In this document: piece by piece, positions 1 through 35,023 of the stretch
Layout: each line of letters starts with the position of its first letter
Numbering within the stretch: the stretch's first letter is position 1
Origin: Clostridiales bacterium
GTDB taxonomy: Bacteria > Bacillota > Clostridia > Christensenellales > Borkfalkiaceae
DNA: 35,023 nucleotides
Assembly (NCBI GenBank): GCA_015055725.1
Contig: SVHO01000012.1
Location: 1-35,023, forward strand
Reading direction: 5' to 3'
The notes under the pieces: generated by a model
Database searches by the model: none
Seen by the model: the letters and a program-made list of their open reading frames with translations, nothing else
Told to the model about the DNA's origin: nothing
Program-made: the position numbers and the translations under genes

Positions 1-237
1 AGATAACATTTCTGCGCAGAGGCGTAATCGGCGTATCGAAGGTAGGATACGTGTAAAGTGGCGACATTTTACGCATCACATCACTTTTCTTAACTCGTTT
101 ACGCACCGTTTGCGCGGTCTTTCGCAACGAAAGACAAACCCGAATTTGTTTCGGGTTTGTCTTTTGTTTTGTGTAGAAACGAGATTTTATTTTGGTTCTT
201 TGGTTCGGCTTTGCCAACGTAGCGTTAGCGTAGTTGT
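1..237. other. Unassigned GC-richer segment, no supported gene
   Basis: The first 130 bases are visibly richer in G+C than the rest of the window and match no protein or RNA I recognise. One forward frame stays open from base 2 to about 261, but its translation is arginine-rich, low in structure and reads straight through a terminator hairpin, so I do not call it a gene. Another frame ends at a stop near base 56 and could be the tail of a gene that begins outside the window. The stretch ends at a tRNA-Ser 3' fragment, so it may be the end of an integrated element; that is inference. Confidence 0.4.
131..170 (+). terminator. Strong rho-independent terminator
   Basis: A perfect 14-bp stem (AAGACAAACCCGAA at 131-144 with TTCGGGTTTGTCTT at 150-163) with a 5-nt loop is followed by a T-rich tail. 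It would end a transcript entering from the left edge. Confidence 0.85.
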
Positions 238-255
238 ATCCCTCGCTCTCCGCCA
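238..255 (+). other. tRNA-Ser 3'-end fragment (possible attachment-site remnant)
   Basis: ATCCCTCGCTCTCCGCCA reads exactly like the end of a tRNA-Ser: the 3' strand of the T stem (CCCTC), an acceptor 3' strand GCTCTCC that would pair with the usual GGAGAGC, discriminator G, and CCA. The sequence just 5' of it does not form the rest of a T arm or a tRNA body, so this is a partial copy. Integrases that use tRNA 3' ends leave such fragments at one end of the inserted DNA. The full tRNA-Ser would lie outside the window. Confidence 0.6.
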
Positions 256-260
256 AACAT

Positions 261-300
261 AACCTAATCCGAGCTAAAATCGGTTTAGGTTTTTTCTTTT
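261..300 (+). terminator. Terminator after the tRNA-Ser fragment
   Basis: The arms AACCTAA-T-CCGA and TCGG-T-TTAGGTT (one T-T mismatch, 7-nt loop) are followed by a long T run. It sits 5 nt after the CCA of the tRNA-Ser fragment, so it probably belonged to the tRNA transcription unit and was copied along with it. Confidence 0.8.
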
Positions 301-324
301 ATATAAAAATTTATAAATTTTTTA

Positions 325-345
325 ATATGACAAATGTTGTCATAT
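325..345. promoter_or_regulatory. Perfect 9-bp palindrome, possible operator
   Basis: The arms ATATGACAA (325-333) and TTGTCATAT (337-345) flank a 3-nt centre, about 100 nt upstream of the first gene. No T run follows, so it is not a terminator. The size and symmetry fit the binding site of a dimeric repressor, but I cannot name the protein. Confidence 0.45.
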
Positions 346-448
346 ATACATACTAAAATCTAAGTAGAAAAGCAAAGGGACGAAATAATTATGATAAATC
401 TATAAATTATGTAGTCGATTGTGTATTAAAGAAGAAAAGGAGTTAATT

Positions 449-1141
449 ATGGATGTTTTAATCTGGAAAGAAATTGAACAAGATTTTGAAACTGCGAAAA
501 AAAATCTTTGGTGTCCTAAAGGCGTTGAGACGTGGCATAGGGAAGAAGAGATTGGAAACTATTATTTATTAAAAGCGTATTTAAATGCTAAAAAAGAAGA
601 GGTAAAGGATAATTTACTATTTGCTAGGATACTTATGTCAATGTATTGGGTAAATACACATATACAAAGTGAGTGGTATTTGCTTAAAACATTTATCAAG
701 CCAGCTTTAGATAGCTATAACAAAGCAATTAAATTAGGTGAAAAACCAACTGAAGAAGAATTAAAAAGAGTAAATAGGATTTATGACGAATTGCAATATA
801 ATATGATGAAATATAGGCAAGATGACTGTGATTTAATAGCTTTAATTGATGGGTTAAGTGATATACCTGAATTCTATTTTCATGATTCAGAAGTTCATAG
901 TTTTTGCGTAAACGGAGATAATGCAACAATGCTTTTGGAATTTGAAGGCGTTTTTGTTGAGTTTACCTTTTATGGCGTTCTAGAATTTAATACTAATATA
1001 GATATCAACAATCAATACGTGTGTGATTATTATTGCTTTCAAACATATTATGCTAAAGAACTTCTAATTTTTATCTTAAACTGTGGGTATACAATTTATT
1101 GTAAAAAAATAAAAGCAAAAAGAGTTGATAAATTAGATTAA
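449..1141 (+). CDS. Protein of unknown function, possibly immunity-like
   Basis: I do not recognise this 230-residue protein with confidence. The ATG at 449 is chosen because AAAAGGAG lies 6 nt upstream; an in-frame TTG at 419 has no ribosome site. The N-terminal two thirds are rich in charged and aromatic residues and look helical. The C-terminal part (from about residue 140) contains FHDSEVHSF followed by alternating hydrophobic strands, an arrangement that from memory resembles C-terminal domains of DUF4085-type and some polymorphic-toxin immunity proteins. There is no signal peptide or membrane segment, and no toxin gene is adjacent. It writes Asp-Val as GATGTT at its start, unlike most of the window, which fits a recently acquired gene. 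Confidence 0.75.
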   Translation: MDVLIWKEIEQDFETAKKNLWCPKGVETWHREEEIGNYYLLKAYLNAKKEEVKDNLLFARILMSMYWVNTHIQSEWYLLKTFIKPALDSYNKAIKLGEKPTEEELKRVNRIYDELQYNMMKYRQDDCDLIALIDGLSDIPEFYFHDSEVHSFCVNGDNATMLLEFEGVFVEFTFYGVLEFNTNIDINNQYVCDYYCFQTYYAKELLIFILNCGYTIYCKKIKAKRVDKLD

Positions 1142-1327
1142 TATGAAATTTAAATATAGGGAAATGTCTTTAACATTATAAAATTTATTTTTGCGAGCGA
1201 ATTTGATAATTAAAATTGTTTGCCTTTAATTTAAAACTTTTTTATGAATTGGATTTTTTTATTGATTTTCTTTCTATAATCGTGTAATATATAATATATA
1301 AAAAGTTAAATTTTAGTGGGTGGTTTT

Positions 1328-2218
1328 ATGATGAATTTGGAAAGCTTAAAGCAGTTACTTTCTGATTTGTGTTTCCCTGAAAAAGCAAAGCAAAATGTAA
1401 TATCATATTATAATAAAATAAATGAGTGTTGCTCTAAAGATTTAGAAGAAATTATATCGAAATACGAGCAAAACTATGATATGCCGTGGAGCGAATTTGA
1501 AGTAATTTTTGCAAAAATGAAAGAAATCGCTAAAAAAACTGGTTTACACGAATTTAGTGTGGGGTTAGTATATTATTTATTGCTTTCAGAACCGCTTAAG
1601 CAAGTGTATATTAAAAAAGGCGTTTCTCTTGATATTTGGAAAACGTCTGTAATGGATTTGAAATATAAATTAGATGAAGCCGAAATTATGAACGGTGTTT
1701 GTGGTGTTATTAAATTTAGTTGGCCCGTTCAATTTTTTAGGTTTGAAAAATTCGGAATAGGTAAATTGCAATTTGAAGTAATTCCTTTTAGGCACGAATT
1801 TAATCTTAACGGAATTGAACTTAAACCAAATAGCAAGGTAATTAACGTTCATATTCCTAAAACAGGAGAGCCACTTGATAGAGAAAGTATGCTTGATGCA
1901 TATAAGCGGGCAAAAGAGTTTTTTGCTAACGTTAAGTACGGTGATAAAACGGTGTTCGTTTGTGAAAGTTGGATGCTATCCGAAAAAAACAAGCAAATTT
2001 TTAAGCCTGAAAGTAATTTGTTTAAGTTTATTAATGATTATACAATTGTTGAAAGCGGGGATTATTCTGATTACCAAGAAACGTGGCGAATTTTTGATAC
2101 GACGGATTTGTCAGATTTAGAAAAATTGCCCCAAAAAACTTCCGTTCAACGTGCTTATTTAGATATTATGAGAAAAGGAGAAAAGACGGGGTGGGCTTAC
2201 GGGGCGTTTGTTTTTTAA
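1328..2218 (+). CDS. GNAT-like acyltransferase domain protein
   Basis: This 296-residue soluble protein resembles the Clostridia 'acyltransferase domain-containing' family, in which a helical N-terminal domain precedes a GNAT-like C-terminal half. The C-terminal half carries NVHIPKTGEPLD, then a helix DAYKRAKEFF, then VFVCESWMLSE and a closing segment, the order I recall for that family. Substrate and role are not known. Tandem ATG codons at 1328 and 1331 are the likely starts; a GTG at 1316 in the same frame has no ribosome site. A TATAAT-like box at 1275-1280 may be its promoter. Its last 60 nt are overlapped from the other strand by a small convergent gene. The family call rests on recall and overall pattern, not a search. 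Confidence 0.7.
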   Translation: MMNLESLKQLLSDLCFPEKAKQNVISYYNKINECCSKDLEEIISKYEQNYDMPWSEFEVIFAKMKEIAKKTGLHEFSVGLVYYLLLSEPLKQVYIKKGVSLDIWKTSVMDLKYKLDEAEIMNGVCGVIKFSWPVQFFRFEKFGIGKLQFEVIPFRHEFNLNGIELKPNSKVINVHIPKTGEPLDRESMLDAYKRAKEFFANVKYGDKTVFVCESWMLSEKNKQIFKPESNLFKFINDYTIVESGDYSDYQETWRIFDTTDLSDLEKLPQKTSVQRAYLDIMRKGEKTGWAYGAFVF

Positions 2219-12725: not shown

Positions 12726-13601
12726 ATGGATTTGAGTTTTTTTCCGGAAAGATACGTAGGTATCTTAAATAAAGTAAATTTAATTGAATTATATGAAATT
12801 AGATTAAGAATTGGTTATCCTGTCTTACTTAAATTTCCAAATAAAACTTTATATTTAGGGGATTGTGGGGAGACTTTACTTGAAGAAAATGCCTTGATTT
12901 GCGTTCAAAATGATATAAACGATATTATAAACAACGTGACAGAGCACTCATTATACGCTTTTAACGACATGATTAAAAAGGGATATTTATCGACTAATCA
13001 GGGAGTACGGATTGGTTTAGCAGGTGAGTGTGTTTTTGAAAACGGAAAAATCATAACAATAAAAAATTTTTCTTCATTAAATATTAGAATTCCTCACGAA
13101 ATAAGAAACTGTTCTGAAAACTTTTATAATAAAATTTATAATAAAAAAGATAAACACTTATTTAACACGCTTATTATATCAGCACCGCTGTATGGTAAAA
13201 CTACGGTATTAAAAGATTTAGCTAGAAAGATTGATAAAGAAGATTATGGTTCGATTTTGATAATTGACGAGCGTGATGAGTTTGTCAACGTTAAAGGTAA
13301 AAATATTGATTCTATAAAATATTCGGACAAGTTATATGCTTTTGAATTTTCTTTGCGGTCAATGGCCCCTCGAGTTGTTATAACTGACGAATTAACAACG
13401 GAAAATGATTGGCAATGCGTATTTAATGCTTCAAATAGTGGAACTGCGATTTTAGCAAGTTGCCATGCTCGAACGATAGAAGACGTTATATGTAAAAAAT
13501 ATTTTAAAAAAGGCGTTTTTGAAAGATACGTATTATTAAAATCGAGGGGAAATGCTGGCGTTTTAGATTGTGTTTATGATGGTGAATTCAATATAATATG
13601 A
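12726..13601 (+). CDS. spoIIIAA: Stage III sporulation protein AA, ATPase
   Basis: The 291-residue protein is the cytoplasmic ATPase of the SpoIIIA-SpoIIQ channel between mother cell and forespore; it resembles type II/IV secretion ATPases. NNVTEHSLYAF, QGVRIGLAGECV and the Walker B region ILIIDERDE (177-185) are typical. The Walker A segment is SAPLYGKTT (152-160), with Ser where the first Gly is usual and without the common PPGSGKT wording. The C-terminal part with ASCHA is present. There is no ribosome site; TATACT at 12711-12716 lies 9 nt before the ATG, so transcription may start near the start codon. It overlaps spoIIIAB by 4 nt. Confidence 0.95.
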   Translation: MDLSFFPERYVGILNKVNLIELYEIRLRIGYPVLLKFPNKTLYLGDCGETLLEENALICVQNDINDIINNVTEHSLYAFNDMIKKGYLSTNQGVRIGLAGECVFENGKIITIKNFSSLNIRIPHEIRNCSENFYNKIYNKKDKHLFNTLIISAPLYGKTTVLKDLARKIDKEDYGSILIIDERDEFVNVKGKNIDSIKYSDKLYAFEFSLRSMAPRVVITDELTTENDWQCVFNASNSGTAILASCHARTIEDVICKKYFKKGVFERYVLLKSRGNAGVLDCVYDGEFNII

Positions 13602-14056
13602 AAATTTTAATTAGTATTTCTATTATAATTTTATCCACTTACATCGGTTTTGTTATGAGTGGCAAATTTAAAGAAAAAGAAACTTTTTTTTCTTTATTTT
13701 ATTCTTTTCATGAAAAATTGAAAAGAGAAGTCGTTTACTCAAAAAAAACGATTAAAAGCATGTTAGACGAGCAAGAAGCTAATGATTTTAAAATTATAAT
13801 GGAAAAATTTTTAAAAAATGAAAAAATTAATTATAATATTAAATATTTAAAGCAAGATGATTTAGAATTTATTAAAACTTACTGTGAAAACATAGGCGTT
13901 GGGAATTCAAAATCACAAATAGAATATTTGTCAAGCGTAGATAAAGAGGTTGTAAAGATGCTTAATATTTGCCAAGATAATGCAAAAAAATATACTAAAC
14001 TGTATATTAAGCTTGGTTTTTTAATAGGTCTAATGATAATGGTGGTAATATTGTAA
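13598..14056 (+). CDS. spoIIIAB: Stage III sporulation protein AB
   Basis: This 152-residue protein has an N-terminal membrane helix (about 2-19), a soluble helical domain with FFSLFYSFHEKLKREVVYSKKTI, and a C-terminal hydrophobic segment (about 132-152). It matches SpoIIIAB, a membrane component related to type II secretion GspF. Its start overlaps the spoIIIAA stop (ATGA) and it is 4 nt upstream of spoIIIAC. Confidence 0.9.
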   Translation: MKILISISIIILSTYIGFVMSGKFKEKETFFSLFYSFHEKLKREVVYSKKTIKSMLDEQEANDFKIIMEKFLKNEKINYNIKYLKQDDLEFIKTYCENIGVGNSKSQIEYLSSVDKEVVKMLNICQDNAKKYTKLYIKLGFLIGLMIMVVIL

Positions 14057-14060
14057 AACT

Positions 14061-14258
14061 ATGCAAATTGAGTTGATTTTTAAAATAGCGGGAATAGGCA
14101 TACTAATCACCGTTATAACACAAGTGCTTAAAAAAAGCGATAGAGATGATATAGCAACCTTAGTGTCATTAGCAGGGTTTATAATCGTTTTAACTTTTGT
14201 TGTTGGTATGATAAGTGATCTATTTGAAACGATTAAAAATATTTTTTCTTTATATTGA
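14061..14258 (+). CDS. spoIIIAC: Stage III sporulation protein AC
   Basis: This is a 65-residue membrane protein with two hydrophobic helices (about 3-22 and 32-55) joined by the short charged turn KKSDRDD, the normal size and shape of SpoIIIAC. The motif KIAGIGIL ... ITQVLKKSDRDDIA is typical. It lies between spoIIIAB and spoIIIAD and overlaps the latter by one base (TGATG). Confidence 0.93.
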   Translation: MQIELIFKIAGIGILITVITQVLKKSDRDDIATLVSLAGFIIVLTFVVGMISDLFETIKNIFSLY

Positions 14259-14638
14259 TGCTTCAAATTATATCTTTTGTTTTACTTGGAGCGATGGTTG
14301 TTTTGTGTTTAAAAAACGTAAATAGCGAAATTGCAACTGTTCTTATAGTTGTTGTAGGGGCTATTCTTTTTGGGGTAGCACTTAAATATTTATCTCAAAT
14401 ATTTAGTTTCGTTAATTACTTGGCAAACCTAGGCGGTATAAATGAATTATTTTACAAAATAATATTAAAAACAATTGCGATAGGATATTTAACTGAGTTT
14501 GGGGCAGAGATTGTTAGCGACGTTGGGCTCAAAAGTTGGGCGGACAAGCTTGTTTTTATAGGTAAAGTGATGATATTTAGTGTTTCATTGCCTATTTTTT
14601 ACTCAGTTTTTAATTTGTTATTAGGTTTAGTAAAATGA
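14258..14638 (+). CDS. spoIIIAD: Stage III sporulation protein AD
   Basis: The 126-residue membrane protein has about four hydrophobic segments and matches SpoIIIAD (conserved FVNYLANLGGINELFYKIILKTIAIGYLTEFGAEI region, written here only as landmarks FVNYLA and YLTEFGAEI). The ATG at 14258 shares its A with the spoIIIAC stop TGA; a TTG one codon upstream is less likely. It overlaps spoIIIAE by 4 nt. Confidence 0.92.
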   Translation: MLQIISFVLLGAMVVLCLKNVNSEIATVLIVVVGAILFGVALKYLSQIFSFVNYLANLGGINELFYKIILKTIAIGYLTEFGAEIVSDVGLKSWADKLVFIGKVMIFSVSLPIFYSVFNLLLGLVK

Positions 14639-15807
14639 AAAAAATCGGTAAATTGCCTATTATCTTAATTTCTGTTTTAACTCTTTTAATAATAAATCCT
14701 GATTTATACTGTGGTGTTGTTTATGCAGATACGCTGAGCGAAAATATTGAAGAACAAATGAGCAAGTTGGATTTAAGTCAACTATCAATCTTTTTTGACT
14801 CCCTATTTCTTGATGGTAAAATTAATATAGACTTTTTTGAGTGCGTAAATTCAATGCTTAAAGGAGATATTACATTAGAGTTTAATTCAATAAACGAATA
14901 TTTATTTAAAACTATTCTTGGTGTCTTTTTTGAATTCCTACCAACATTTTTAAGTGTAATCGCAATATCTGTTCTTTGTGGGATAGTTCAAAATGCAAGG
15001 AGTAAATATTTATCTGAAGGGGTTGGTGAAGTGACTTTTTACGTGTGCTTAATGGGGGTTGTTTTGCTTTTAGGCACACAAATAATTTCTTTATGGCAAA
15101 ATATTGAAAACATCATTAAAAACATAGCAAAATTAACCGAGATTATGTCACCCATAATCTTAACTTTAATGATGGCGGTAGGAGGGAATGTTTCAGCTTC
15201 AGTTTATAAACCTGCGGTTGCAGTTCTATCTAACGGTGTTGTAAGCGTAGTTCTCTATTTAATCATGCCCTTAGTTGCTTTAATGACTGTATTTAACGTG
15301 CTTGGCAATTTTTCTACAAGCATAAAACTTTCAAAATTTTCAGAATTTATATCTTCAACGATTAAATGGATAATAGGTCTAATGGTTGCTATATTTGGAC
15401 TCTTTTTATCAGTCCAAGGTATTACAAGTGCTCATTTTGACGGAATATCAATTAAAGCAACTAAATATGCAATTTCAAATTCTGTTCCAATAATTGGTGG
15501 TTTTATAAAAGATGGGCTTGATCTTATCATTGCTGGGAGCGTGATAATAAAGAACTCAATAGGTGTGACAATTCTTTTTGCTCTTTTTTATATGATAATT
15601 TCACCAGTATTATATTTAGCTATATTTTCGTTGTTATTAAAGCTAACTTCTGCAATAATTGAACCAATTTGTGACGTTAGAATTCCTAATTTTTGTTTAA
15701 GTATTTCTAAAACGGTGACTTATTTAACCGTTTCGTTAATATCGGTTGGTTTTATGCTTTTTATTACTGTTTTACTAATGATTTTATCAGCAAACGCTTT
15801 TTTCTAA
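14635..15807 (+). CDS. spoIIIAE: Stage III sporulation protein AE
   Basis: The 390-residue multipass membrane protein starts with a likely signal/anchor sequence (residues 5-30, ending near VYADT), followed by an extracellular stretch and about eight hydrophobic segments from residue 95 onward. Segments such as LTEIMSPIILTLMMAVGG and the KATKYAISNSVPIIGGFIKDG region are typical of SpoIIIAE. It is the largest membrane part of the SpoIIIA complex. Its start overlaps the spoIIIAD stop; spoIIIAF follows after 1 nt. Confidence 0.95.
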   Translation: MKKIGKLPIILISVLTLLIINPDLYCGVVYADTLSENIEEQMSKLDLSQLSIFFDSLFLDGKINIDFFECVNSMLKGDITLEFNSINEYLFKTILGVFFEFLPTFLSVIAISVLCGIVQNARSKYLSEGVGEVTFYVCLMGVVLLLGTQIISLWQNIENIIKNIAKLTEIMSPIILTLMMAVGGNVSASVYKPAVAVLSNGVVSVVLYLIMPLVALMTVFNVLGNFSTSIKLSKFSEFISSTIKWIIGLMVAIFGLFLSVQGITSAHFDGISIKATKYAISNSVPIIGGFIKDGLDLIIAGSVIIKNSIGVTILFALFYMIISPVLYLAIFSLLLKLTSAIIEPICDVRIPNFCLSISKTVTYLTVSLISVGFMLFITVLLMILSANAFF

Positions 15808-15808
15808 T

Positions 15809-16291
15809 ATGAAAGAGTGGGTGGTAAATATTGCTTTTACAATTTTTTTTGTTTCTTTAATAACTTTGCTTTTGCCTAGTGGTAAGTTAAGCAAGCAAAT
15901 AAAAAGTGTTCTTTCATTAATTGTTGTAATTATTGTAATTCAACCTCTTTTATCTATTAAGGAAAGTGAAATTAATTTTGATACTTTTATTTATGGTGAA
16001 AATTATCAAGTTCAAGAAGATTATTTAGATTATTTTACTGCAGAAAAAATCCAAAATTTTAAGGATAAATGTTCTAGCATGCTTAAAGAAAATGGGATTG
16101 AAGGCGCAAAGTGTGAGTTTGAGTATAATTATGTCGAAAATTACGTTTTAGAAATTAAACAAATCGTAGTTGATATAAAAAAAGCAGTAATTAAATTAGA
16201 TAAGCAACATATAGATATTATTGAACAAATCAAAACACTTGTTGCTAATTCTTTTAACGTTGAAAAAAATTGCGTGGTGGTTTATGAGTGA
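15809..16291 (+). CDS. spoIIIAF: Stage III sporulation protein AF
   Basis: The 160-residue protein has two N-terminal membrane helices (about 6-23 and 33-50) and a soluble C-terminal domain exposed to the intermembrane space, as in SpoIIIAF. The first residues MKEWVVNIAFTIFFVSLI are typical. Sequence conservation in this subunit is low, so the call leans on operon position. Confidence 0.88.
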   Translation: MKEWVVNIAFTIFFVSLITLLLPSGKLSKQIKSVLSLIVVIIVIQPLLSIKESEINFDTFIYGENYQVQEDYLDYFTAEKIQNFKDKCSSMLKENGIEGAKCEFEYNYVENYVLEIKQIVVDIKKAVIKLDKQHIDIIEQIKTLVANSFNVEKNCVVVYE

Positions 16292-16796: not shown

Positions 16797-16807
16797 AGGA
16801 GAATACT

Positions 16808-17287: not shown

Positions 17288-17314
17288 AAAACACTATGCA
17301 AAATGAATATTTTG

Positions 17315-17323
17315 TGGTACAAT
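17315..17323 (+). promoter_or_regulatory. Extended -10 promoter before the asp23 gene
   Basis: TGG-TACAAT (TG one base before the -10 hexamer) lies 32 nt upstream of the ATG of the Asp23 gene. The -35 region is weak, which is common for extended -10 promoters. Confidence 0.5.
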
Positions 17324-17355
17324 AAATGTGAAAATTTATTTATCGGAGAATATTT

Positions 17356-18137: not shown

Positions 18138-18984
18138 AATTATTGACGGAAAAGCACTATCACAAAAAATAAAAGATGAGTTAAAGCAAAAAGTAAGCGA
18201 TTTTGAGCAAAAGTTTGGTAGAAAAATAACGCTTGCCGTAGTTTTAGTGGGTGAAAATCCTGCATCACAAGTTTACGTTAGAAATAAAATTAAAGCTACT
18301 GAATATGTCGGTATGAAATCTCTTTCTTTTTATATGCCCGAAAATTCAACCGAAGAAGAAGTTTCTCAAACCGTTTTAAGCCTTGCAAAAGATGACGGTG
18401 TTGACGGGATTTTAGTTCAGTTGCCATTACCAAAACACATAAATGAAACCAAAATTTTGAATTTAATACCCGCCGATAAAGACGTTGATGGTTTTTTAGC
18501 GCAAAACGTTGGTAATTTACTGCTTGGTGAACCGTGTACTATTGCTTGCACTCCGTTTGGCGTTATAAAAATGTTGCAAAGCCAAAATATAGAACTGTCT
18601 GGTAAAAATGCTGTGGTTATCGGAAGAAGTAATATAGTTGGAAAACCAATGGCGTTGCTTTTATTAAAAGAGAATTGTACGGTCACCGTTTGTCATAGCA
18701 AGACCAAAAATCTAAGTGAAGTTTGTAAAAACGCAGATATTTTGGTATCTGCAATTGGTAGACCAAAGTTTGTCACAGCCGACATGGTTAAACAAGACGC
18801 TGTGGTTATTGACGTTGGTATAAATAGAACTGAGCAAGGGTTGGTAGGCGACGTTGATTTTGAAAACGTTAAAGAGATTGCTTCTTATATTTCGCCAGTT
18901 CCTGGTGGTGTTGGACCAATGACTATTGCTATGCTACTTGAAAATACTTATCTTTGTGCGCTAAGGAGAAATAATATTGAATAG
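18130..18984 (+). CDS. folD: Bifunctional methylenetetrahydrofolate dehydrogenase/cyclohydrolase
   Basis: The 284-residue FolD interconverts methylene-, methenyl- and 10-formyl-tetrahydrofolate in one-carbon metabolism. The active-site region VYVRNKIKA has the catalytic Lys at 53; the NADP-binding region is VIGRSNIVGKPMALLL, and PGGVGPMT is near the C-terminus. The ATG at 18130 has GGGAG 7 nt upstream and overlaps nusB by 8 nt. In other Clostridia xseA/xseB come next; here ispA follows directly with an 8-nt overlap. Confidence 0.97.
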   Translation: MAKIIDGKALSQKIKDELKQKVSDFEQKFGRKITLAVVLVGENPASQVYVRNKIKATEYVGMKSLSFYMPENSTEEEVSQTVLSLAKDDGVDGILVQLPLPKHINETKILNLIPADKDVDGFLAQNVGNLLLGEPCTIACTPFGVIKMLQSQNIELSGKNAVVIGRSNIVGKPMALLLLKENCTVTVCHSKTKNLSEVCKNADILVSAIGRPKFVTADMVKQDAVVIDVGINRTEQGLVGDVDFENVKEIASYISPVPGGVGPMTIAMLLENTYLCALRRNNIE

Positions 18985-19855
18985 TTATAAGGCGGAATAT
19001 TCAAGATATCAAACCTTGTTTGAAGATTGTTTATCAAGCGTTCTTGCTAACCTAAAACAAAATGCGCCTAAAACTCTAATCGACGCAATGAATTACGCGA
19101 TAATAGACGGTGGAAAGCGCGTTAGACCAGTTTTATGTTTTTCTACGTGTGAAATGCTTGGTGTTGACCCGTTAAAAGCAAAAGAATTAGCGATTGCTTT
19201 AGAATGTATTCATTCTTATTCTTTAGTACACGATGATTTACCCGCAATGGATAACGACGATTTTAGAAGGGGGAAACTTTCAACACATAAAAAATTTGGC
19301 GAAGCAAACGGGGTTTTGGCGGGAGACGCCCTTTTAAACTTTGCTTTTGAAGTTGTTCTTTCTAAAAAAGATTTTTCTCAAAAAGATGCAAAAGCACTTG
19401 CGATTTTAGCAGATTGCGCAGGTTATAGTGGCATGATTGCGGGGCAAGTTTTAGACCTTGAAAACGAAAACTCTAAAATAGTCGATTCCGATATTTTATA
19501 TAAAATATATGAAAATAAAACCGCAAAATTGATAACTGCGCCATTACTGATGGCGTCCGTACTCGCAGATTATAAACATTTTGAAGACTTAAAAGAACTT
19601 GGCTATCATTTAGGGATTACTTTTCAAATGGTTGACGACCTTATGGACGTTGAGGGCACACTTGAAAGTATTGGCAAAACTCCAAATAAAGACCTAAAAG
19701 ATGATAAACTGACTTCTATTAAAGTTTTTGGTGTAAATGGGGTTAAGGAGCGAATAAAATACCATCACGGCAAGTGTAAAGAACTTTTAGCCACAATTAA
19801 CGCGAGCGAGTTTTTAACTCAATTAGTTGATGCAATGGCTGTTAGGAAAAAATAA
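18977..19855 (+). CDS. ispA: Polyprenyl/farnesyl diphosphate synthase
   Basis: The 292-residue prenyltransferase condenses DMAPP and IPP to geranyl and farnesyl diphosphate for quinone, undecaprenyl and tRNA modification. The first Asp-rich motif is DDLPAMDNDD (86-95) and the second DDLMD (220-224); GGKRVRP (45-51) binds IPP. It starts with TTG at 18977, with AAGGAG 9 nt upstream, and overlaps folD by 8 nt. It would use the products of the IspH encoded 9 kb upstream. The usual next gene dxs is absent. Confidence 0.95.
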   Translation: MNSYKAEYSRYQTLFEDCLSSVLANLKQNAPKTLIDAMNYAIIDGGKRVRPVLCFSTCEMLGVDPLKAKELAIALECIHSYSLVHDDLPAMDNDDFRRGKLSTHKKFGEANGVLAGDALLNFAFEVVLSKKDFSQKDAKALAILADCAGYSGMIAGQVLDLENENSKIVDSDILYKIYENKTAKLITAPLLMASVLADYKHFEDLKELGYHLGITFQMVDDLMDVEGTLESIGKTPNKDLKDDKLTSIKVFGVNGVKERIKYHHGKCKELLATINASEFLTQLVDAMAVRKK

Positions 19856-19869
19856 TTTAGGCGTTAAAT

Positions 19870-20628
19870 ATGCGTTTAGATAATTATTTAGTTGAAAAAT
19901 GTTTTTTTGATTCTAGGACCAAGGCAAAACAAGCAATTCTTCGTGGTGAAATTTTTATTGACAATGATTGTATTCAAAAACCTTCATTTGATATGTGTAA
20001 TGATATAACCTATAAAGTTGAAAGGGTATGTGAAGATAGTTTCGTTTCACTTGGTGGTTTTAAATTAAAAAAAGCGTTAACCGATTTTAATTTTATAGTT
20101 AATGGTTTAACCGTTGCGGATATAGGTGCAAGCACGGGTGGTTTTACTGATTGTTTGCTTCAAAATGGAGCAAAGACCGTTTTTGCAGTTGACTTAAACG
20201 ACGATTTGCTTCACCAATCTCTTAAAGATGATAAGCGAGTAAAAAGGGTAATTAAAAATGCTAGGGAGCTTAAAAAAAGTGATTTTTCTTTACCGATTGA
20301 CCTTATCGTTGCAGATTTAAGCTTTATATCTATAACTTACGTTTTGAACGTTTTTTCTAATATATTGGATAACGATAAATATCTTTTGGTTCTAATAAAA
20401 CCACAGTTTGAGGCAAATAAAAAGCGAAAATTAAAAAACGGCATAGTTAAAGATAAGAAAGAAATGATTGATGCTTGCCGAAGCGTTTTAAACAAAGCAA
20501 TTGAATATAATTTTGCGCCAATTGCATTTACTAACGCTCCTCTTGTTGATGGTAAAAACGTGGAATTTTTAATGCTTTTCCAAAAAAATGGTGTTCAAAA
20601 GTTAACCGAAAACGACTTAAGGTTTTAA
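19870..20628 (+). CDS. tlyA: TlyA family rRNA (cytidine-2'-O)-methyltransferase
   Basis: The 252-residue protein combines an N-terminal S4 RNA-binding domain (about 1-60, MRLDNYLVEKCFFDSRTKAKQAI) with an FtsJ-like methyltransferase domain (ADIGASTGGFTDCLL near residue 79 binds SAM; VADLSFISI and LIKPQFE follow). TlyA methylates ribose of cytidines in 16S and 23S rRNA. Some family members were once called haemolysins, without good support. It keeps its Clostridia place between ispA and nadK. Confidence 0.95.
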   Translation: MRLDNYLVEKCFFDSRTKAKQAILRGEIFIDNDCIQKPSFDMCNDITYKVERVCEDSFVSLGGFKLKKALTDFNFIVNGLTVADIGASTGGFTDCLLQNGAKTVFAVDLNDDLLHQSLKDDKRVKRVIKNARELKKSDFSLPIDLIVADLSFISITYVLNVFSNILDNDKYLLVLIKPQFEANKKRKLKNGIVKDKKEMIDACRSVLNKAIEYNFAPIAFTNAPLVDGKNVEFLMLFQKNGVQKLTENDLRF

Positions 20629-20668
20629 TTTTAACAATAAACATTGGCTCTTATATACAAGGTGGATT

Positions 20669-21484
20669 ATGAAAGTTTTAATTTATGATAATAAAGAAAA
20701 AGATTTTGATGGAACGCTTTTTAATAGGTTAACTGAGCTATTTAAAAAGTATAACGTTGAATTTTCTTTATTAAAAGACGAAGAGTTGTCAAATTCCGCA
20801 ACTGCGGACGCAATTTTCGTGCTTGGCGGTGACGGAACAATACTTTGGCTTACTGAATTTGCAATAAACAACGATATTCCAATAATCGGCATTAACACAG
20901 GTAAACTTGGCTTTTTAACCGAGTTTGAACTTGCTGAAATGGATCTTGCTGTTGAACTTTTTGTTTCAAAACAACTTAAAAAAGACTACCGCTCAACCAT
21001 TTGTGTTAGTGTTGGCGATGATTCTTATTATGCGCTTAACGATGCGTATATTTGCCGTTATTATGAAAAAGAAATTGGTTCTTTGACTGCTGAAATCACC
21101 GTTTTAATTAACGGAAAACCAGTTGAAGAAGTTAAGGGCGACGGAATTATTCTTTCAACGCCAACAGGTTCAACGGCATATTCTTTGTCGGCTGGTGGCC
21201 CAGTTATTTCGCCCGATTCTGAAGTTCTTGCAATTACACCTATTGCATCTCACGATATTAGTCAACGTACATTAATATGCCCATCGAAAATTGATTGTCA
21301 ATTAGTTATGAAAGGTAAATCGGGCTGTGAACTTTTTGTTGATGGGAAATTTATTTCTAAGTTAGTGAAGGGTACCGTTATCTCTATTAACGTTCCTGAT
21401 AAAAAAATGCAATTTTTAAGAAAAAATACTTTTGATTTTTATAATAGATTAAATTTTAAGTTAAAAAGAAAAACAGATTTGTGA
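20669..21484 (+). CDS. nadK: NAD kinase
   Basis: The 271-residue enzyme phosphorylates NAD to NADP using ATP or polyphosphate. GGDGT (53-57) is the catalytic/phosphate motif; KGDGIILSTPTGSTAYSLSAGGP holds the NE/D-type and glycine-rich second motif, and PIASHDIS is typical. AAGGTGG precedes the ATG. It is followed after 4 nt by argR. Confidence 0.96.
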   Translation: MKVLIYDNKEKDFDGTLFNRLTELFKKYNVEFSLLKDEELSNSATADAIFVLGGDGTILWLTEFAINNDIPIIGINTGKLGFLTEFELAEMDLAVELFVSKQLKKDYRSTICVSVGDDSYYALNDAYICRYYEKEIGSLTAEITVLINGKPVEEVKGDGIILSTPTGSTAYSLSAGGPVISPDSEVLAITPIASHDISQRTLICPSKIDCQLVMKGKSGCELFVDGKFISKLVKGTVISINVPDKKMQFLRKNTFDFYNRLNFKLKRKTDL

Positions 21485-21488
21485 TATT

Positions 21489-21935
21489 ATGACGAAAAAA
21501 GAGAGATTATTAGTAATTAAAACGTTGATTGAAAATTACGAAATTTCAACCCAAGAAGAATTGACTCAACTTTTAACTGAAAAGGGGTATAACGTTTCGC
21601 AATCAACTATTTCGCGTGACATGAACGAACTTGGATTGACAAAAGTTGCGGGACTTGAGAAAAAGTTTAAATATGCTTGCGCAGATATTCGTGAACAAGA
21701 AGTGACGCCACAAATGATTAGTTTGTTTAATCAAGTGACGCTTTCAATGGAAAACGCTAACAATTTAATTGTAATAAAAACGCTTGCAGGAAACGCTGGG
21801 ACAGCCGGCATGGTTATAGACCAAATGCATTTTAAATGTGTTTTAGGTACGGTTGCAGGCGACGATACTTTGCTTGTAATAGCAAAATCAAATTCTGATG
21901 CTGAAATGATTTTAAGGGTTTTAAGGAACATTTAA
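21489..21935 (+). CDS. argR: Arginine repressor ArgR
   Basis: This 148-residue regulator has an N-terminal winged helix (YNVSQSTISRDMNELGL) and a C-terminal oligomerisation and arginine-binding domain (AGNAGTAGMVID, LGTVAGDDTLLVI). It controls arginine synthesis and breakdown genes elsewhere; no arginine genes lie in this window. Its place before recN is conserved in Firmicutes. The stop TAA shares its last A with the recN start (TAATG). Confidence 0.96.
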   Translation: MTKKERLLVIKTLIENYEISTQEELTQLLTEKGYNVSQSTISRDMNELGLTKVAGLEKKFKYACADIREQEVTPQMISLFNQVTLSMENANNLIVIKTLAGNAGTAGMVIDQMHFKCVLGTVAGDDTLLVIAKSNSDAEMILRVLRNI

Positions 21936-23644
21936 TGCTACAAACGTTATTGATAAAAAACGTTGCGCTTATTGATTGCGCCGAAATAAATTTTTCAAAC
22001 GGTTTAAACGTTCTCTCTGGTGAAACTGGTGCGGGAAAATCCGTCATTATAGAGTCGCTAAACTTTGTATTAGGGGCAAAGGCGGATAAAAGTATGATTC
22101 GCACTGGTGAAAGCGAGTGCTACGTTCGAGCTGAGTTTTTTATTGACGATATTGATTTTTTGGCTGATTTTTTTGAGCAACTTGAAATTGAATGTGAGCA
22201 AACGCTAATCATATCGCGAAAATTTAACCTTGACGGTAGAAGTACTATAAAAGTCAACGGTGTAAGTGTAACGGTTGGTATGTTAAAGCAACTTACTTCT
22301 CACCTTGTTGACGTTCACGGTCAAAGTGAACATTTTTATTTGCTAAACACTTCAAATCAACTTAAATTGATTGATAAAGTGGGTGGAAAGGATATTTCCG
22401 AAATAAAATTTAGAATCGCGCATGCTTTTAAGGAATATAAAGACGTTGTAAGTGAGTTAAATAAACTTGGTGGAGATGAAACGCAACGCATTATGCGCTT
22501 GGATATATTAAATTATCAAATAAACGAAATCCAGGCGTGTGACCTAAAAGAAAATGAAGAAGACGAACTTTTAGAAATAAAGCAAAAACTTAATTCTTAT
22601 GAAAAAATTGCAAACGCATTAAACGGTGTTAAAAATTCCATTAAAGATGAAGGTGGAGTTGTTGATATTCTAAGCAATACAATGCGTCTTTTATCAAATA
22701 TAACATCTTTAGGTAAAGAGTATTCTGACCTTGATGAAAGACTTACAGCCGTTTATTCTGAACTTGACGATTTGGGTGATTGCGCCTCAAATTTATTAGA
22801 AGATTTTGATTTTTCAGAATATGATGCGGACAAAATTGAAAATAGACTTGATAAAATTAAAAACATAAAGAAAAAATACGGCTCTAACTACAGCGAAATT
22901 TATTCTTTTTTAGAAAATGCATTAGCAGAGAAAGAAAAACTTGAAAACTTTAACGAACTTGCAAGTTCATTAATCTCTAAAAAAGAAAAACTTGAAAATG
23001 ATTTGTATGAAAAATATTTAATTTTAAGCCAAAAAAGAAAAGAGAGTGCCAATGGTTTTGCTAAAGCGGTTTTAACTGAATTAGTACAATTAGGTATGCC
23101 TAAAGCAAAATTTGAAGTGAATTTTTCAGATTTTCCAAACAAAAGTGATTGCCAATTTAATAGTGCAAGTGGTGTTGATTCTATTGAATTTTTATTTTCT
23201 GCAAATATGGGTGAGCCATTAAAACCATTGTCAATGGTTATTAGTGGTGGAGAAATGAGTAGGTTTATGTTATCTATAAAAACCCAAACTGCAAAATATA
23301 ATGAAATTAAAACGTTTATTTTTGATGAAATTGATGCGGGAATAAGTGGTTTTACGGCTCGTGTAGTTGCTCAAAAGTTTGTTGACGTTTCTAAGAACGT
23401 TCAGATTATTGCAATTTCACATTTGCCACAAATTTCAGCTATGGCGGATAATAATTTACTTATATTAAAGCAAGAAGCTGGTGAAAAGACAATAACTACG
23501 GTTAAAACGTTGTCTGAAGAAGAAAAGGTTTTAGAAGTTATGCGTTTAATTGGCGGTGAAAATTCAAGCCTTACTGCAAAAGAACACGCTAAAGAACTCA
23601 TTACACAAGCTAATCAATATAAAAAAGAAAAGAAGGTCATTTAA
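21935..23644 (+). CDS. recN: DNA repair protein RecN
   Basis: The 569-residue SMC-like ATPase acts early in double-strand-break repair. Walker A GETGAGKS (29-36) is near the N-terminus; a long coiled coil spans about residues 150-370; the ABC signature VISGGEMSRF and Walker B FIFDEIDAGISG follow. Length is normal. The start shares one base with the argR stop. The TAA stop lies in the loop of its own terminator. Confidence 0.97.
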   Translation: MLQTLLIKNVALIDCAEINFSNGLNVLSGETGAGKSVIIESLNFVLGAKADKSMIRTGESECYVRAEFFIDDIDFLADFFEQLEIECEQTLIISRKFNLDGRSTIKVNGVSVTVGMLKQLTSHLVDVHGQSEHFYLLNTSNQLKLIDKVGGKDISEIKFRIAHAFKEYKDVVSELNKLGGDETQRIMRLDILNYQINEIQACDLKENEEDELLEIKQKLNSYEKIANALNGVKNSIKDEGGVVDILSNTMRLLSNITSLGKEYSDLDERLTAVYSELDDLGDCASNLLEDFDFSEYDADKIENRLDKIKNIKKKYGSNYSEIYSFLENALAEKEKLENFNELASSLISKKEKLENDLYEKYLILSQKRKESANGFAKAVLTELVQLGMPKAKFEVNFSDFPNKSDCQFNSASGVDSIEFLFSANMGEPLKPLSMVISGGEMSRFMLSIKTQTAKYNEIKTFIFDEIDAGISGFTARVVAQKFVDVSKNVQIIAISHLPQISAMADNNLLILKQEAGEKTITTVKTLSEEEKVLEVMRLIGGENSSLTAKEHAKELITQANQYKKEKKVI

Positions 23645-23657
23645 TTGACCTTTTTTG
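23633..23657 (+). terminator. Terminator overlapping the recN stop
   Basis: AAGGTCA (23633-23639) pairs with TGACCTT (23646-23652), followed by TTTTTTG; the TAA stop is in the loop. It separates recN from spoIVB, which has its own promoter immediately after. Confidence 0.88.
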
Positions 23658-23685
23658 TATATTTAACGTTTACTTACCCATAATA
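23657..23685 (+). promoter_or_regulatory. Sigma-G/sigma-F-type forespore promoter of spoIVB
   Basis: GTATA (23657-23661) and CATAATA (23679-23685) are separated by 17 nt, close to the B. subtilis sigma-G pattern (GNATR, about 18 nt, CATNNTA). The -10 element ends 18 nt before the spoIVB start. In B. subtilis spoIVB is transcribed in the forespore under sigma-G, so the site and gene agree. Confidence 0.7.
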
Positions 23686-23703
23686 ACGAAGTAGTGGGGA
23701 AGT

Positions 23704-24690
23704 ATGAAGAGAAAAATTAAATTTATTTTATCATTAGTGTGCTTTTTAATGGTGTTTGTCTTTTCTTCAAGTGTAAGCGTTTGGGCAAATTCAGTAGATA
23801 ATAAAATTTATCTTGGCGGAATGACGGCAGGTTTTTCGTTAAAAACACGCGGTGCTAACGTTGTAGGCATTTGTGACGTTGTCACAAAAGACGGCGTTTC
23901 TTCACCAGCAAAGGACGCCGATATTAAGGTAAACGACGTTATACTTAATATTGACGGAAAAGAAATAAACAATGCCTTAGACGTTGAGAATAATATAAAA
24001 AATAAAAATGAAGTTTTAATTACTATTGATAGAGATGGTGATTTAGAAGAAAAAAAGTTAATCCCAGCAAAAGATATTTCAGGAAACAATAAAATTGGGG
24101 TTTTTATAAGGGAAGACGTTAGTGGAATTGGAACAATCACATTTATTAAAGGTGGAAGATTTGCCTCACTTGGTCACCCTGTTATTACTGAAAACGGAAA
24201 AACGTTAAATATTATTGGAGGAAAACTCTTTAATTGCAACGTCACGGGATGTGTAAAAGGAAAAAGGGGAAAAGCTGGCGAATTGAAAGGAGTTTACCTA
24301 AAGAATAATCCTATTGCAACAGTTGAAAAAAACCTAAATTGTGGTGTTTATGGAACTATTTCTAAAGATTTTAACTACGAAAATTTAATCGAGATTTCAG
24401 AAGGAGAAGCTCACGTTGGTGAGGCGAAAATATATTCTACAATCTGTGGAGATAAACCGTGTTTTTATCAAATTTCAATAGTTAAGGTTGATGATTTAGG
24501 AAAAAGTAAAAATTTCGTTATAAAAGTCACCGATGAAAATCTCATAGAAAAAACAGGTGGTATAGTTCAGGGTATGAGTGGTAGTCCGATTATTCAAAAT
24601 GGTAAACTTGTCGGTGCGGTCACTCACGTTTTTATCAACGACCCAACAAGAGGGTTTGGCATATCAATTGATAATATGATAAATAATTAG
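23704..24690 (+). CDS. spoIVB: SpoIVB serine peptidase (family S55)
   Basis: The 328-residue protein signals from forespore to mother cell by cleaving SpoIVFA, which frees the SpoIVFB protease to process pro-sigma-K. A signal/anchor helix (about 5-28) precedes a PDZ domain (about 45-115, SPAKDADIKVNDVILNI) and the S55 domain with His158 (SLGHPV) and the nucleophile Ser in GMSGSP (290-295); GFGISIDNM closes it. It is about 100 residues shorter than the B. subtilis protein (426). GGGGAA lies before the ATG. The gene normally after it, spo0A, is not here. Confidence 0.95.
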   Translation: MKRKIKFILSLVCFLMVFVFSSSVSVWANSVDNKIYLGGMTAGFSLKTRGANVVGICDVVTKDGVSSPAKDADIKVNDVILNIDGKEINNALDVENNIKNKNEVLITIDRDGDLEEKKLIPAKDISGNNKIGVFIREDVSGIGTITFIKGGRFASLGHPVITENGKTLNIIGGKLFNCNVTGCVKGKRGKAGELKGVYLKNNPIATVEKNLNCGVYGTISKDFNYENLIEISEGEAHVGEAKIYSTICGDKPCFYQISIVKVDDLGKSKNFVIKVTDENLIEKTGGIVQGMSGSPIIQNGKLVGAVTHVFINDPTRGFGISIDNMINN

Positions 24691-28899: not shown

Positions 28900-29602
28900 G
28901 TCTATTTTGTTTGTTTCAGGCACTCAAGTTGCCATTTCTGATATTGCAGATAAACTTGAAGTTAGTGATAAGGAAATAAACTCTGCAGTTAAAGATTTGC
29001 AGGAAAAATATTCGGGTGAAAGTGGAATCCAACTTTTAACTTTTAACAAGAAATTACAATTTTGCTCTAATCCAAAGTATTCTGAGCAAGTTTCTTCAGT
29101 TCTTAATCCTATCAAGGAAAAAGAGCTTTCGAAGAGTATGCTTGAAGTTGCTGCAATTATTGCATATAAACAGCCTGTCACTAGAATTGACTTAGAGGAA
29201 ATCCGCGGTAATAGTGAATATGCAGTTCAAAAGCTTTTAGAACTTGGCGTTATTGAACCTGTTGGGAGAAAAGATGCTGTTGGTAAACCTGTTTTATTTG
29301 GAACTACTGACAAGTTTTTAAAACGTTTTCAAATTTCTTCTTTAGATGAATTACCTGATTATGACGAACTTATAAATAGAATTCAACTTATACGTGGTGA
29401 CGTTAAGGAAGACGACTATTTGTATAGTAAAGACGTTTACGTTGAAGACGCGGATAATAAATCAGAGGTTGCGGTTACGAAAGACAATCCAAAGAAAAAT
29501 GTTAAAAAACCTGTGAACGACAATAACGATTTTGATTTGCCTGATATTAGTGAAGAAGAAATTCCAGACTTTCTTAAAGACGAGGAAATTGAAAGGTTTT
29601 AA
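28865..29602 (+). CDS. scpB: Segregation and condensation protein B
   Basis: The 245-residue partner of ScpA has two winged-helix domains; LEVAAIIAYKQPVTR and EIRGNSEYAVQKLLELGVIEPVG-type landmarks (EIRG, LLELGVIEPVGRKD, GKPVLFGTT) identify it. A GGGAGG inside scpA, 6 nt upstream of the ATG, sets the start. The acidic C-terminal tail (from about residue 185) is longer than in many ScpB proteins. Confidence 0.96.
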   Translation: MKNLEKLTNIIESILFVSGTQVAISDIADKLEVSDKEINSAVKDLQEKYSGESGIQLLTFNKKLQFCSNPKYSEQVSSVLNPIKEKELSKSMLEVAAIIAYKQPVTRIDLEEIRGNSEYAVQKLLELGVIEPVGRKDAVGKPVLFGTTDKFLKRFQISSLDELPDYDELINRIQLIRGDVKEDDYLYSKDVYVEDADNKSEVAVTKDNPKKNVKKPVNDNNDFDLPDISEEEIPDFLKDEEIERF

Positions 29603-32424: not shown

Positions 32425-32432
32425 AGCAGAGT

Positions 32433-33632: not shown

Positions 33633-33655
33633 AAAAAAACTCCTTGCTTTTTTAA

Positions 33656-33798: not shown

Positions 33799-33832
33799 AA
33801 CTATGCGCAAAAGCCGTGTTTTGCGCATAGTT
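33799..33832. repeat. Perfect 14-bp inverted repeat (hairpin)
   Basis: AACTATGCGCAAAA (33799-33812) and TTTTGCGCATAGTT (33819-33832) surround a 6-nt loop. No T run follows on either strand, so it is not a typical terminator. It shares the 10-mer GCGCAAAAGC with the other hairpin at 34157-34187, in inverted orientation. Confidence 0.85.
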
Positions 33833-33878
33833 GTACATCTCTAACCTACCAAATGAATATAAAAAACAAAATATAATA

Positions 33879-34148
33879 CTAAGTATTTTTATACAGATAA
33901 TACATTTTATCAATCACCTCACGACAAGAACGAAAACTAAAATAAAGTATATTTTTAGTTTTAGAGTTAACATAAGTTAAACGCCAACATTTAGAAGAAG
34001 AACGAATAATAACAAAACTATCAAAAAGACTATACCCTTTACGCCGATAGAAGCAATAATTATGCCTGTCATAATCATAAAAAAGACTATAAGCACGTAA
34101 AAAATCAACAGGTAAAGAAATTAAAAGCCAATGTACACGATATTTCAT
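33879..34148 (-). CDS. Unrecognised small basic, tyrosine-rich protein
   Basis: This 89-residue frame starts at ATG 34148 and is unlike any family I know. It is rich in Tyr, Phe, Arg and Lys and low in Ala and Gly, with no membrane helix; KCWRLTYVNSKTKNILYFSF looks like alternating strands. Most codons end in T, as in the two frames upstream. There is no clear ribosome site; translation may be coupled or the start may differ. It lies between two hairpins that share an inverted 10-mer. Confidence 0.5.
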   Translation of the reverse strand: MKYRVHWLLISLPVDFLRAYSLFYDYDRHNYCFYRRKGYSLFDSFVIIRSSSKCWRLTYVNSKTKNILYFSFRSCREVIDKMYYLYKNT

Positions 34149-34156
34149 AGATTAAA

Positions 34157-34187
34157 GCTTTTGCGCGGGGTACAAACCCCAGCGCAA
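34157..34187. repeat. Strong GC-rich hairpin
   Basis: TTGCGC-GGGGT (34161-34171) pairs with ACCCC-A-GCGCAA (34176-34187), with an ACAA loop and a single bulged A. It is far more G+C-rich than its surroundings. It contains GCTTTTGCGC (34157-34166), the inverted counterpart of the 10-mer at 33805-33814. Confidence 0.8.
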
Positions 34188-34194
34188 CGCTCCC

Positions 34195-34512
34195 CTAATT
34201 TATAAAGTCTAAAATTTTAATAATAATCAAACAACCAATTATAAACGTTAAATGAGATAACAAAAATAACCATAAAGGCTGACTTAAGTCAAACCCAGCG
34301 AGATTAAAGAAAAAATCAATTACAGGATTAGTAGTTGAGTGATATTTACGAATACCAAGCCAACTCAAAAAGACGTCAAACCAAGGCGTTTTTCTAAAGT
34401 AATAACGCGAAAAAAGAGAGTTGACAGGAGTATTAAAAAAGTCAATAGCACGTTGAAAAAACACAAGAAAAGAAGATTTTGATATATCATAAAGAGATAA
34501 AAAAAAATGCAT
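34195..34512 (-). CDS. Small membrane protein, possibly a pVI-like minor coat protein
   Basis: The 105-residue protein starts at ATG 34512, one base after the upstream stop; AGGGGG 5 nt before it is a suitable ribosome site. It is rich in Phe and Leu, with hydrophobic segments near residues 8-25 and 80-102, and a more polar middle (KYHSTTNPVIDFF). No family is recognised. Tight coupling with the YNDG-repeat gene and the membrane character suggest a joint structural role in the phage-like element. Confidence 0.7.
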   Translation of the reverse strand: MHFFLSLYDISKSSFLVFFQRAIDFFNTPVNSLFSRYYFRKTPWFDVFLSWLGIRKYHSTTNPVIDFFFNLAGFDLSQPLWLFLLSHLTFIIGCLIIIKILDFIN

Positions 34513-34513
34513 A

Positions 34514-35023
34514 TTAACCCCCTGCAAAAATCTTTAGAACAATCAACACAAGCATAACACCAACACTAACCATTAAAACGTCACCAATAGAGAATAAACC
34601 GAATATTTTAACGTCTAAAATATTTAAAGAAGATTGCAAAAACCAACCCAATGAAAATTCATTATCCTGACCAGCACGCCAGCCGTCATTATAACCGTCA
34701 TTATATCCGCTCCCCACATATTCAGCCTTTGCGTCATTATAACCATTACTATAACCGTCACGATTACCAACAGCTACACCGTCATTATATCCGTTTTGAT
34801 AAATAATGTTATCAGTTATAGAAGAAGCTGTATAATAAGTACGAGTATCAAGTAAAGATTTATCAGAATTACCCGAATAAACAGCAAATTCAATATAATT
34901 ATCATTAACGTCATAATATCTTATATAATTACAAGCAACAGTTTTAGCATATAAAGCGTAATAATCAGGATTAGCGCCGTTAGGTTGAATACCAATATAT
35001 TTAAACCTAAAAGAACTATTAGA
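34514..35023 (-). CDS. YNDG-repeat surface protein with C-terminal membrane anchor, 5' end outside the window
   Basis: The frame is open to the right edge, so the 169 visible residues are the C-terminal part of a longer protein. The visible part begins with a polar, Tyr/Asn-rich domain, then repeats GYNDG, GNRDG, GYSNGYND, GYNDGYNDG (about residues 78-112) as a flexible spacer, and ends in one membrane helix (FSIGDVLMVSVGVMLVLIVL) plus a short tail. This arrangement (outer domain, Gly-rich repeat linker, C-terminal anchor) recalls filamentous phage pIII, but similar architecture occurs in other surface proteins. Most codons end in T. Confidence 0.75.
   Translation of the reverse strand, partial: SNSSFRFKYIGIQPNGANPDYYALYAKTVACNYIRYYDVNDNYIEFAVYSGNSDKSLLDTRTYYTASSITDNIIYQNGYNDGVAVGNRDGYSNGYNDAKAEYVGSGYNDGYNDGWRAGQDNEFSLGWFLQSSLNILDVKIFGLFSIGDVLMVSVGVMLVLIVLKIFAGG

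Follow-up and report, generated by a model that had tools for sequence, protein, structure and literature searches.

The pentanucleotide GTWAC (GTTAC or GTAAC) is almost absent from a 35,023-nucleotide contig of a Clostridiales bacterium belonging to the family Borkfalkiaceae (SVHO01000012.1, positions 1 to 35,023, hereafter the window), and it is strongly depleted in the sampled part of the genome that contains this contig (G000). The site was very probably purged by long-lasting selection against the word itself, of the kind that a Type II restriction enzyme imposes. Comparison with other genomes of the genus moreover makes it probable that restriction-like pressure on such words forbids individual dipeptides (Val-Thr, Ala-Ala and perhaps Pro-Gly, encoded by CCN-GGN), that the species switch between words and dipeptides, and that GTWAC represents a specificity of its own beside GTSAC (GTGAC or GTCAC) and GTNAC.

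The window contains three GTWAC sites, compared with 44.9 expected from a maximal-order Markov model (Poisson probability of at most three sites, 5e-16) and with a mean of 59.4 in 200 dinucleotide shuffles (standard deviation 7.8, lowest value 40). The first-pass annotation, which had been made from the sequence alone, listed exactly these three positions and expected several tens of sites, in agreement with both calculations. The GTSAC form is found 64 times (GTGAC 39, GTCAC 25), the shuffles giving a mean of 23.1 and a maximum of 35. Val-Thr codon pairs in the open reading frames (ORFs) of the window are written with GTG in 19 cases, with GTC in 16 cases and with GTA and GTT in one case each, GTT accounting for 558 of the 828 Val codons in the same ORFs. 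The earlier hand count of 35 GTG or GTC codons in 37 Val-Thr pairs and the designation of GTT as the commonest Val codon were thereby reproduced over 38 ORFs, which were called by length without a gene finder and were all counted as genes. The 3,896 bases outside of these ORFs contain no GTWAC and five GTSAC sites.

The analysis was extended to a sample of G000 (95% complete) consisting of the loci L001-L021 and the window, that is 22 pieces with 356,428 of 1,477,682 bases. This sample contains 81 GTWAC sites versus 552 expected and 645 GTSAC sites versus 460 expected. When synonymous codons were shuffled within each of 271 ORFs, the observed and expected numbers of GTWAC were 34 and 280 in phase 0, 18 and 200 in phase 1 and 5 and 55 in phase 2, and intergenic DNA contained 15 sites versus 65 (order 1) or 42 (maximal order) expected. 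Accordingly, the statement that the motif is missing in other frames and between genes holds for the G000 sample as well, and neither of the outcomes named in advance as contradicting it, a count close to expectation or a depletion confined to one codon phase, was observed. By z-score, no five-letter word is more depleted than GTWAC, a palindrome with a degenerate centre, and no four-letter word more than GATC. Stronger depletions than that of GTWAC are nevertheless present in this genome, GATC occurring 38 times versus 720 expected and GCNGC outside of phase 0 occurring 11 times versus 230 expected; the latter value coincides with 219 Ala-Ala dipeptides versus 484 expected. Within the window, GATC is present five times (14217, 15520, 20942, 25653 and 31737) versus 65 expected, and the sites CTTAAG (22 versus 111) and GGCGCC (6 versus 32) are likewise depleted in the G000 sample.

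The GTWAC sites that survive in G000 are concentrated in a few stretches. All 17 sites of L017 are located between 7984 and 14166 (6.2 kb), the remainder of this 20-kb locus containing none, and all 11 sites of L011 are located between 11971 and 16320 (4.4 kb), while 13 of 16 sites in L015 lie beyond 5 kb and five of nine sites in L005 fall into the first 1.3 kb. These four island-like stretches, which were picked after the sites had been seen, are devoid of GATC. The GTWAC-rich stretch of L015 includes a gene for a member of the antirestriction family ArdA (L015:8306-8854). In G046, the second genome of the genus that avoids GTWAC and is rich in GTSAC, many of the surviving sites are found on small contigs, for instance 23 GTWAC sites in 12 kb of L262. 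The island-like stretches are less purged than the core and were presumably acquired recently.

To compare the avoidance of GTNAC across the genus, stretches from 40 of the 43 other genomes placed in the genus, along with loci from named genomes, were merged into one table when they belonged to the same genome. Of the 26 loci L032-L057, 18 were assigned to genomes in this way; L048, L050 and L052, which overlap other stretches, and the unplaced loci L040, L041, L043, L053 and L057 were omitted. The outgroup omits L090, L101 and L109. Three short stretches consisting of unreadable bases contributed nothing. Samples with at least 3,000 residues were retained, which left 35 of the 42 samples from the genus and 41 of the 51 loci from the outgroup, and GTNAC expectations in the merged table are of order 1. 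The ratios of observed to expected sites (O/E) for GTWAC and GTSAC, respectively, clearly indicate that the half of GTNAC that is missing differs between species. A low GTWAC value combined with an excess of GTSAC was detected in G000 (0.11, 2.17) and G046 (0.13, 1.52), whereas G052 is low in both forms (0.19, 0.17), as are, though less evenly, G023 (0.34, 0.32), G045 (0.41, 0.18) and G048 (0.38, 0.05). In further species GTSAC alone is low, for example in G056 (0 of 16 expected sites), G012 (3 of 24) and G002 (4 of 26).

A midpoint-rooted tree of 22 genomes was calculated from 16 genes (4,558 columns), 13 of which were supplied by the window. In this tree G000 is grouped with G042 and G003 (support 0.976), one node next to this group having a support of 0.228, and G046 is placed far off. 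Since the tree neighbours of G000 show GTWAC numbers near expectation (124 versus 122 in G003) and G046 is distant, the simplest reading is that avoidance of GTWAC alone arose twice. Loss of palindromes is a general feature of the genus, in which 132 of 1,454 tested pairs of genome and site have an O/E of at most 0.15 (32 genomes). The extremes are G048, with 17 of 48 palindromes at or below this value, including ACGT (1 of 97), AGCT (1 of 158) and CTAG (1 of 85), and G044 with none of 36. GATC is also missing in other species, with 0 of 36 expected sites in G049 and 1 of 68 in G018. The available sequence of G048 (L194 and L054, 33 kb; genome listed as 77% complete) yielded two matches to PF01555, one stronger match to PF02384 and only weak matches to PF02086, and the profile search revealed no PF00145 match.

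These patterns are most likely due to a restriction system, be it past or present. Under such a regime, changes destroying GTWAC by any route would be kept. In Val-Thr pairs the cheapest escape would be a change of the third Val base, from GTT or GTA to GTG or GTC, which would raise the number of GTSAC sites, and in the other phases the escape would proceed through other bases, leading to AAT, TAT and similar codons. In support of this reading, where Val-Thr was kept at a relative's phase 0 GTWAC, GTSAC was found in 195 of 212 columns of G000 and G046 versus 68 of 1,808 in other species. Different species of the genus would have been exposed to specificities for GTWAC, for GTSAC or for GTNAC as a whole, and different specificities would result in the avoidance of GTWAC only, of GTSAC only or of both forms. 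If all GTNAC sites were targeted, Val-Thr would have no synonymous escape, and Val would mostly be replaced by Ile, making the dipeptide rare; GCNGC and Ala-Ala would behave in the same manner.

Several observations weigh against selection by a restriction enzyme. Synonymous escape provides no explanation for the excess of GTGAC in phase 1 (192 versus 143 expected) and of GTCAC in phase 2 (31 versus 25) in G000, GTCAC in phase 1 amounting to 35 versus 43 expected. Searches with family profiles recognised no cognate methylase or endonuclease in G000. The number of purged words is not correlated with the number of visible methylases, which were counted by hand (rho -0.24, p 0.19, 32 genomes), and no GTWAC-specific enzyme emerged from 5.39 million open-access papers, in which the word GTWAC led to two papers that, by title, concern an SOS box and retroviral integration. 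The remark in the first-pass annotation that no such description was known for this group was checked against this open-access literature.

The search of G000 for a DNA methyltransferase, as had been suggested along with a Vsr-like neighbour, detected one PF01555 methylase, a weak PF02086 match in a frame of 188 residues and a weak PF07669/PF02384 match in a frame of 599 residues. The PF01555 gene (L021:240-1166, minus strand) adjoins a gene with rho domains and was rejected as the cause, since orthologue loci at 59-81% identity (best 80 of 361) span every GTNAC state. Proteins with 59-66% identity to this methylase are present in loci titled Treponema, Brachyspira, Lachnospiraceae, Alphaproteobacteria and others (again among the best 80 of 361), some of these titles possibly reflecting misbinned contigs. 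The 599-residue frame resembles a 600-residue protein of G052 (L238:14531-16330, minus strand), which was rejected as a DNA methylase because it is a fusion of DUF1385 and PrmC; most of the genus possesses comparable frames, alike in length and in their weak matches. In G046, a cassette at a contig end (L263:8683-11421) encodes an endonuclease of the RE_TdeIII family together with PF01555 and PF02086 methylases. It is unlikely to be the sole cause, as G003 possesses a similarly placed PF01555/PF02086 pair and a normal GTWAC number. The PF06300 (Tsp45I) profile matched none of 41 genomes and no control, and the DpnI profile PF06044 gave sub-threshold matches only, in four of 44 genomes, and likewise matched no control. 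Depletion of GATC showed no link to PF02086 methylases (p 0.30).

The cognate enzyme of G000 may have been lost, missed or imposed from outside. The last of these possibilities is the main rival to a resident system and supposes that exchanged or mobile-element DNA passes through GTWAC-cutting cells, so that no resident enzyme is needed. It is a possible, although rather improbable, explanation. It would account for the missing enzyme and for the lack of correlation between purged words and visible methylases, and the available text of Rusinov et al. (PMC4687349) reports avoidance of sites whose systems occur only in relatives. On the other hand, exchanged DNA should be purged first, and precisely the island-like stretches of G000 and the small contigs of G046 carry GTWAC. 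An enzyme may also have been missed in a genome that is 95% complete: the methylase of the GTNAC system MaeIII was overlooked by standard annotation, according to the part of the report available to us (PMC10113651), and therefore a relative of it could have escaped the family searches applied here. Taken together, restriction appears to be the cause, and the enzyme appears to have been once resident rather than borne by a neighbour.

Val-Thr is always encoded by GTN-ACN and therefore becomes unwritable once GTWAC and GTSAC are both forbidden. The fate of the dipeptide was followed in ortholog columns from reciprocal-best pairs with at least 40% identity, in which a site was counted once per relative, so that the totals are not independent; the conserved genes of the window contributed many of these columns. 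At positions where relatives have GTWAC in phase 0, 149 of 1,096 columns retain Val-Thr in the species classed as avoiding both forms (G052, G058, G023 and G045), compared with 1,808 of 5,622 columns in the others. Retention per species was measured in aligned columns over 16 source genomes. G052 keeps Val-Thr in 12 of 347 columns, 119 now being Ile-Thr, while Thr-Val, Val-Ser and Leu-Thr, which served as controls, are kept in 31-38%, and thus Val-Thr alone of the four pairs was lost. The corresponding values for G023 are 58 of 360 columns and 30-37% for the controls. Retention ranges from 18 to 40% in 16 species with GTWAC and amounts to 129 of 364 columns in G000 and 67 of 333 in G046. The reading is weakened by G045, which keeps Val-Thr in 69 of 302 columns and in which the controls are low too (17-32%), so that the pair is not singled out. 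In a larger sample of G052, Val-Thr is found 56 times versus 183 expected, the lowest ratio among all dipeptides that are expected 40 times or more; the effect is weaker than in the first 20 kb (1 versus 25), and 28 of the 71 GTWAC sites of this sample fall into the loci L241 and L242. Avoidance of all GTNAC sites thus seems to have nearly removed Val-Thr from the core proteins of one relative.

A general comparison was based on the 25 dipeptides of the fourfold-degenerate residues Val, Ala, Pro, Thr and Gly, which correspond to 25 words of the type XXNYY, five of them palindromic. In the 35 genomes of the genus, over-dispersion is greatest for the palindromic Ala-Ala (11.4), Val-Thr (5.4) and Thr-Val (2.5), followed by the non-palindromic Ala-Pro (2.3), whereas none of the eight most dispersed dipeptides in the 41 outgroup loci is palindromic. 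Dipeptide frequencies were then related to avoidance measured at off-frame sites only, the resulting p values being too small because related genomes are not independent. Val-Thr follows off-frame GTNAC (rho 0.63, p 5e-5, n=35), with 121 dipeptides versus 305 expected at an O/E below 0.3 (three genomes), 1058 versus 1269 at 0.3-0.7 (15 genomes) and 730 versus 676 above (17 genomes). Ala-Ala follows GCNGC (rho 0.78, n=33) and Pro-Gly follows CCNGG (rho 0.50, n=30); the values for Thr-Val and ACNGT (rho 0.40) and for Gly-Pro and GGNCC (rho 0.10, no correlation in the genus) are lower. In the outgroup, Val-Thr and Ala-Ala are not correlated with their sites.

Instead of reflecting site avoidance, these associations could be a side effect of base composition or of a context bias, an explanation that we consider unlikely. 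Ala-Ala and off-frame GCNGC both track the G+C content in the genus (rho 0.68 each), and Thr-Val, as a further point weakening the dipeptide reading, lost its support when G+C was held constant (0.28, 230 of 2,000 permutations). A context bias might moreover be suspected since Gly-Pro (rho 0.50) and Pro-Gly (rho 0.39) track their sites in the outgroup, too. Val-Thr, in contrast, is not related to G+C (rho 0.07) and retains a partial correlation of 0.64 with off-frame GTNAC (0 of 2,000 permutations); Ala-Ala likewise retains 0.59 (4 of 2,000 permutations), the corresponding values for Pro-Gly being 0.53 and 6 of 2,000. The specific loss of Val-Thr among the four pairs in the aligned columns of G052 also argues against a compositional origin.

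As the mechanism behind the exchange of GTWAC for GTSAC, the first-pass annotation had offered two options, avoidance of a restriction site and mismatch repair of the Vsr type. The former is supported by the depletion in all phases and in intergenic DNA, the unpurged islands and the lineage-specific pattern among relatives, but the latter is very unlikely. Very-short-patch repair at methylated GTSAC would turn GTWAC into GTSAC, in keeping with the GTSAC excess in G000 and with the surplus of GTGAC in phase 1 and of GTCAC in phase 2. A clear excess of the amino acids expected from T-to-C changes was, however, not found in the phase 1 columns of G000 and G046: Asp replaces Asn in 13 of 136 columns (76 of 1,091 in other species) and His replaces Tyr in 1 of 76 (14 of 631), AAT and TAT increasing instead, and the number of GTCAC sites in phase 1 is below expectation. 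Furthermore, the profiles of the Vsr endonuclease (PF03852) and of C5 methylases (PF00145) yielded no match in G000, while five and ten of 14 control genomes matched, respectively, and repair of this type leaves the avoidance of GTSAC in other species unexplained. Since neither Vsr nor a C5 methylase nor a clear excess of T-to-C products was detected, the exchange is better explained by selection acting against the word. A vsr-like gene does occur elsewhere in the genus, G045 carrying a cluster (L287:5611-11111) that comprises Vsr, a C5 methylase, an AIPR protein, a DUF4420 protein and PADLOC Mza hits. Although the signal is clearest in Val-Thr pairs, a tRNA effect, already discounted in the annotation, and a codon-pair effect can both be dismissed with near certainty in view of the depletion in phases 1 and 2 and in intergenic DNA.

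Avoidance of restriction sites is usually regarded as a modest effect at the DNA level, and Tsp45I is a known system specific for GTSAC. The same specificity has been reported for M.Hpy99II of Helicobacter pylori in the available text of PMC3936762. The target of these systems is the GTSAC half of the degenerate palindrome GTNAC, and this half is indeed avoided in several species of the genus; in G000, by contrast, the depleted half is GTWAC. MaeIII would target all GTNAC sites, as avoided in G052, while G000 and G046 avoid GTWAC only and are rich in GTSAC. Vsr repair resembles the observed pattern in that it would deplete the T form of a site in favour of the C form, and differs from it in that the respective genes were not detected in G000 and its substitution pattern was not seen. 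Rusinov et al. (2015; PMC4687349) described how host genomes avoid restriction sites, also those of systems that have since been lost, and as in the portion of that study available to us, short palindromes are under-represented here, patchy among relatives and often without a resident system. The avoidance cut-off given there is 0.78, compared with ratios of 0.15 and below in the present genomes. The terms codon, amino acid, dipeptide and synonymous do not appear in the available text, in which effects on protein sequences are thus not treated, and a search of the open-access literature by title returned no report joining restriction avoidance with dipeptide, amino acid or codon-pair effects on the proteome. 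The difference between species in the avoided half of GTNAC and the loss of dipeptides are beyond what was found described for site avoidance. The avoidance seen here goes well beyond the usual cut-off, differs between related species and appears to reach the protein sequence. If this holds true, former restriction systems of uncultured bacteria could be recognised from protein alignments and dipeptide statistics, and proteins would provide a measure of how strongly host genomes are shaped by restriction.

The features of the window are compiled in Table 1.

Table 1. Surviving GTWAC sites and other features of the window
Feature	Coordinates	Strand	Remarks
GTWAC-depleted (3 sites), GTSAC-enriched (64 sites) window	1..35023	.	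Markov and shuffle counts
Surviving GTTAC	1354..1358	+	Phase 2 of ORF 1316-2218 (NAT_N and GNAT_C domains); phase counted from the ORF start
Surviving GTAAC	22268..22272	+	Phase 0 of ORF 21935-23644 (RecF/RecN/SMC N-terminal domain)
Surviving GTTAC	29474..29478	+	Phase 0 of ORF 28865-29602 (ScpB)
Stretch of genes with orthologues in many genus genomes	12726..24690	+	14635-15807 is Spore_III_AE; source of 13 of the 16 tree genes and of many column comparisons

The end of the window is poor in genes (33640-35023). It contains an ORF (34195-34527) without a match in Pfam or PHROGs as well as repeated CCGTCATTATA-like words, and might, as a guess, represent a small mobile element.

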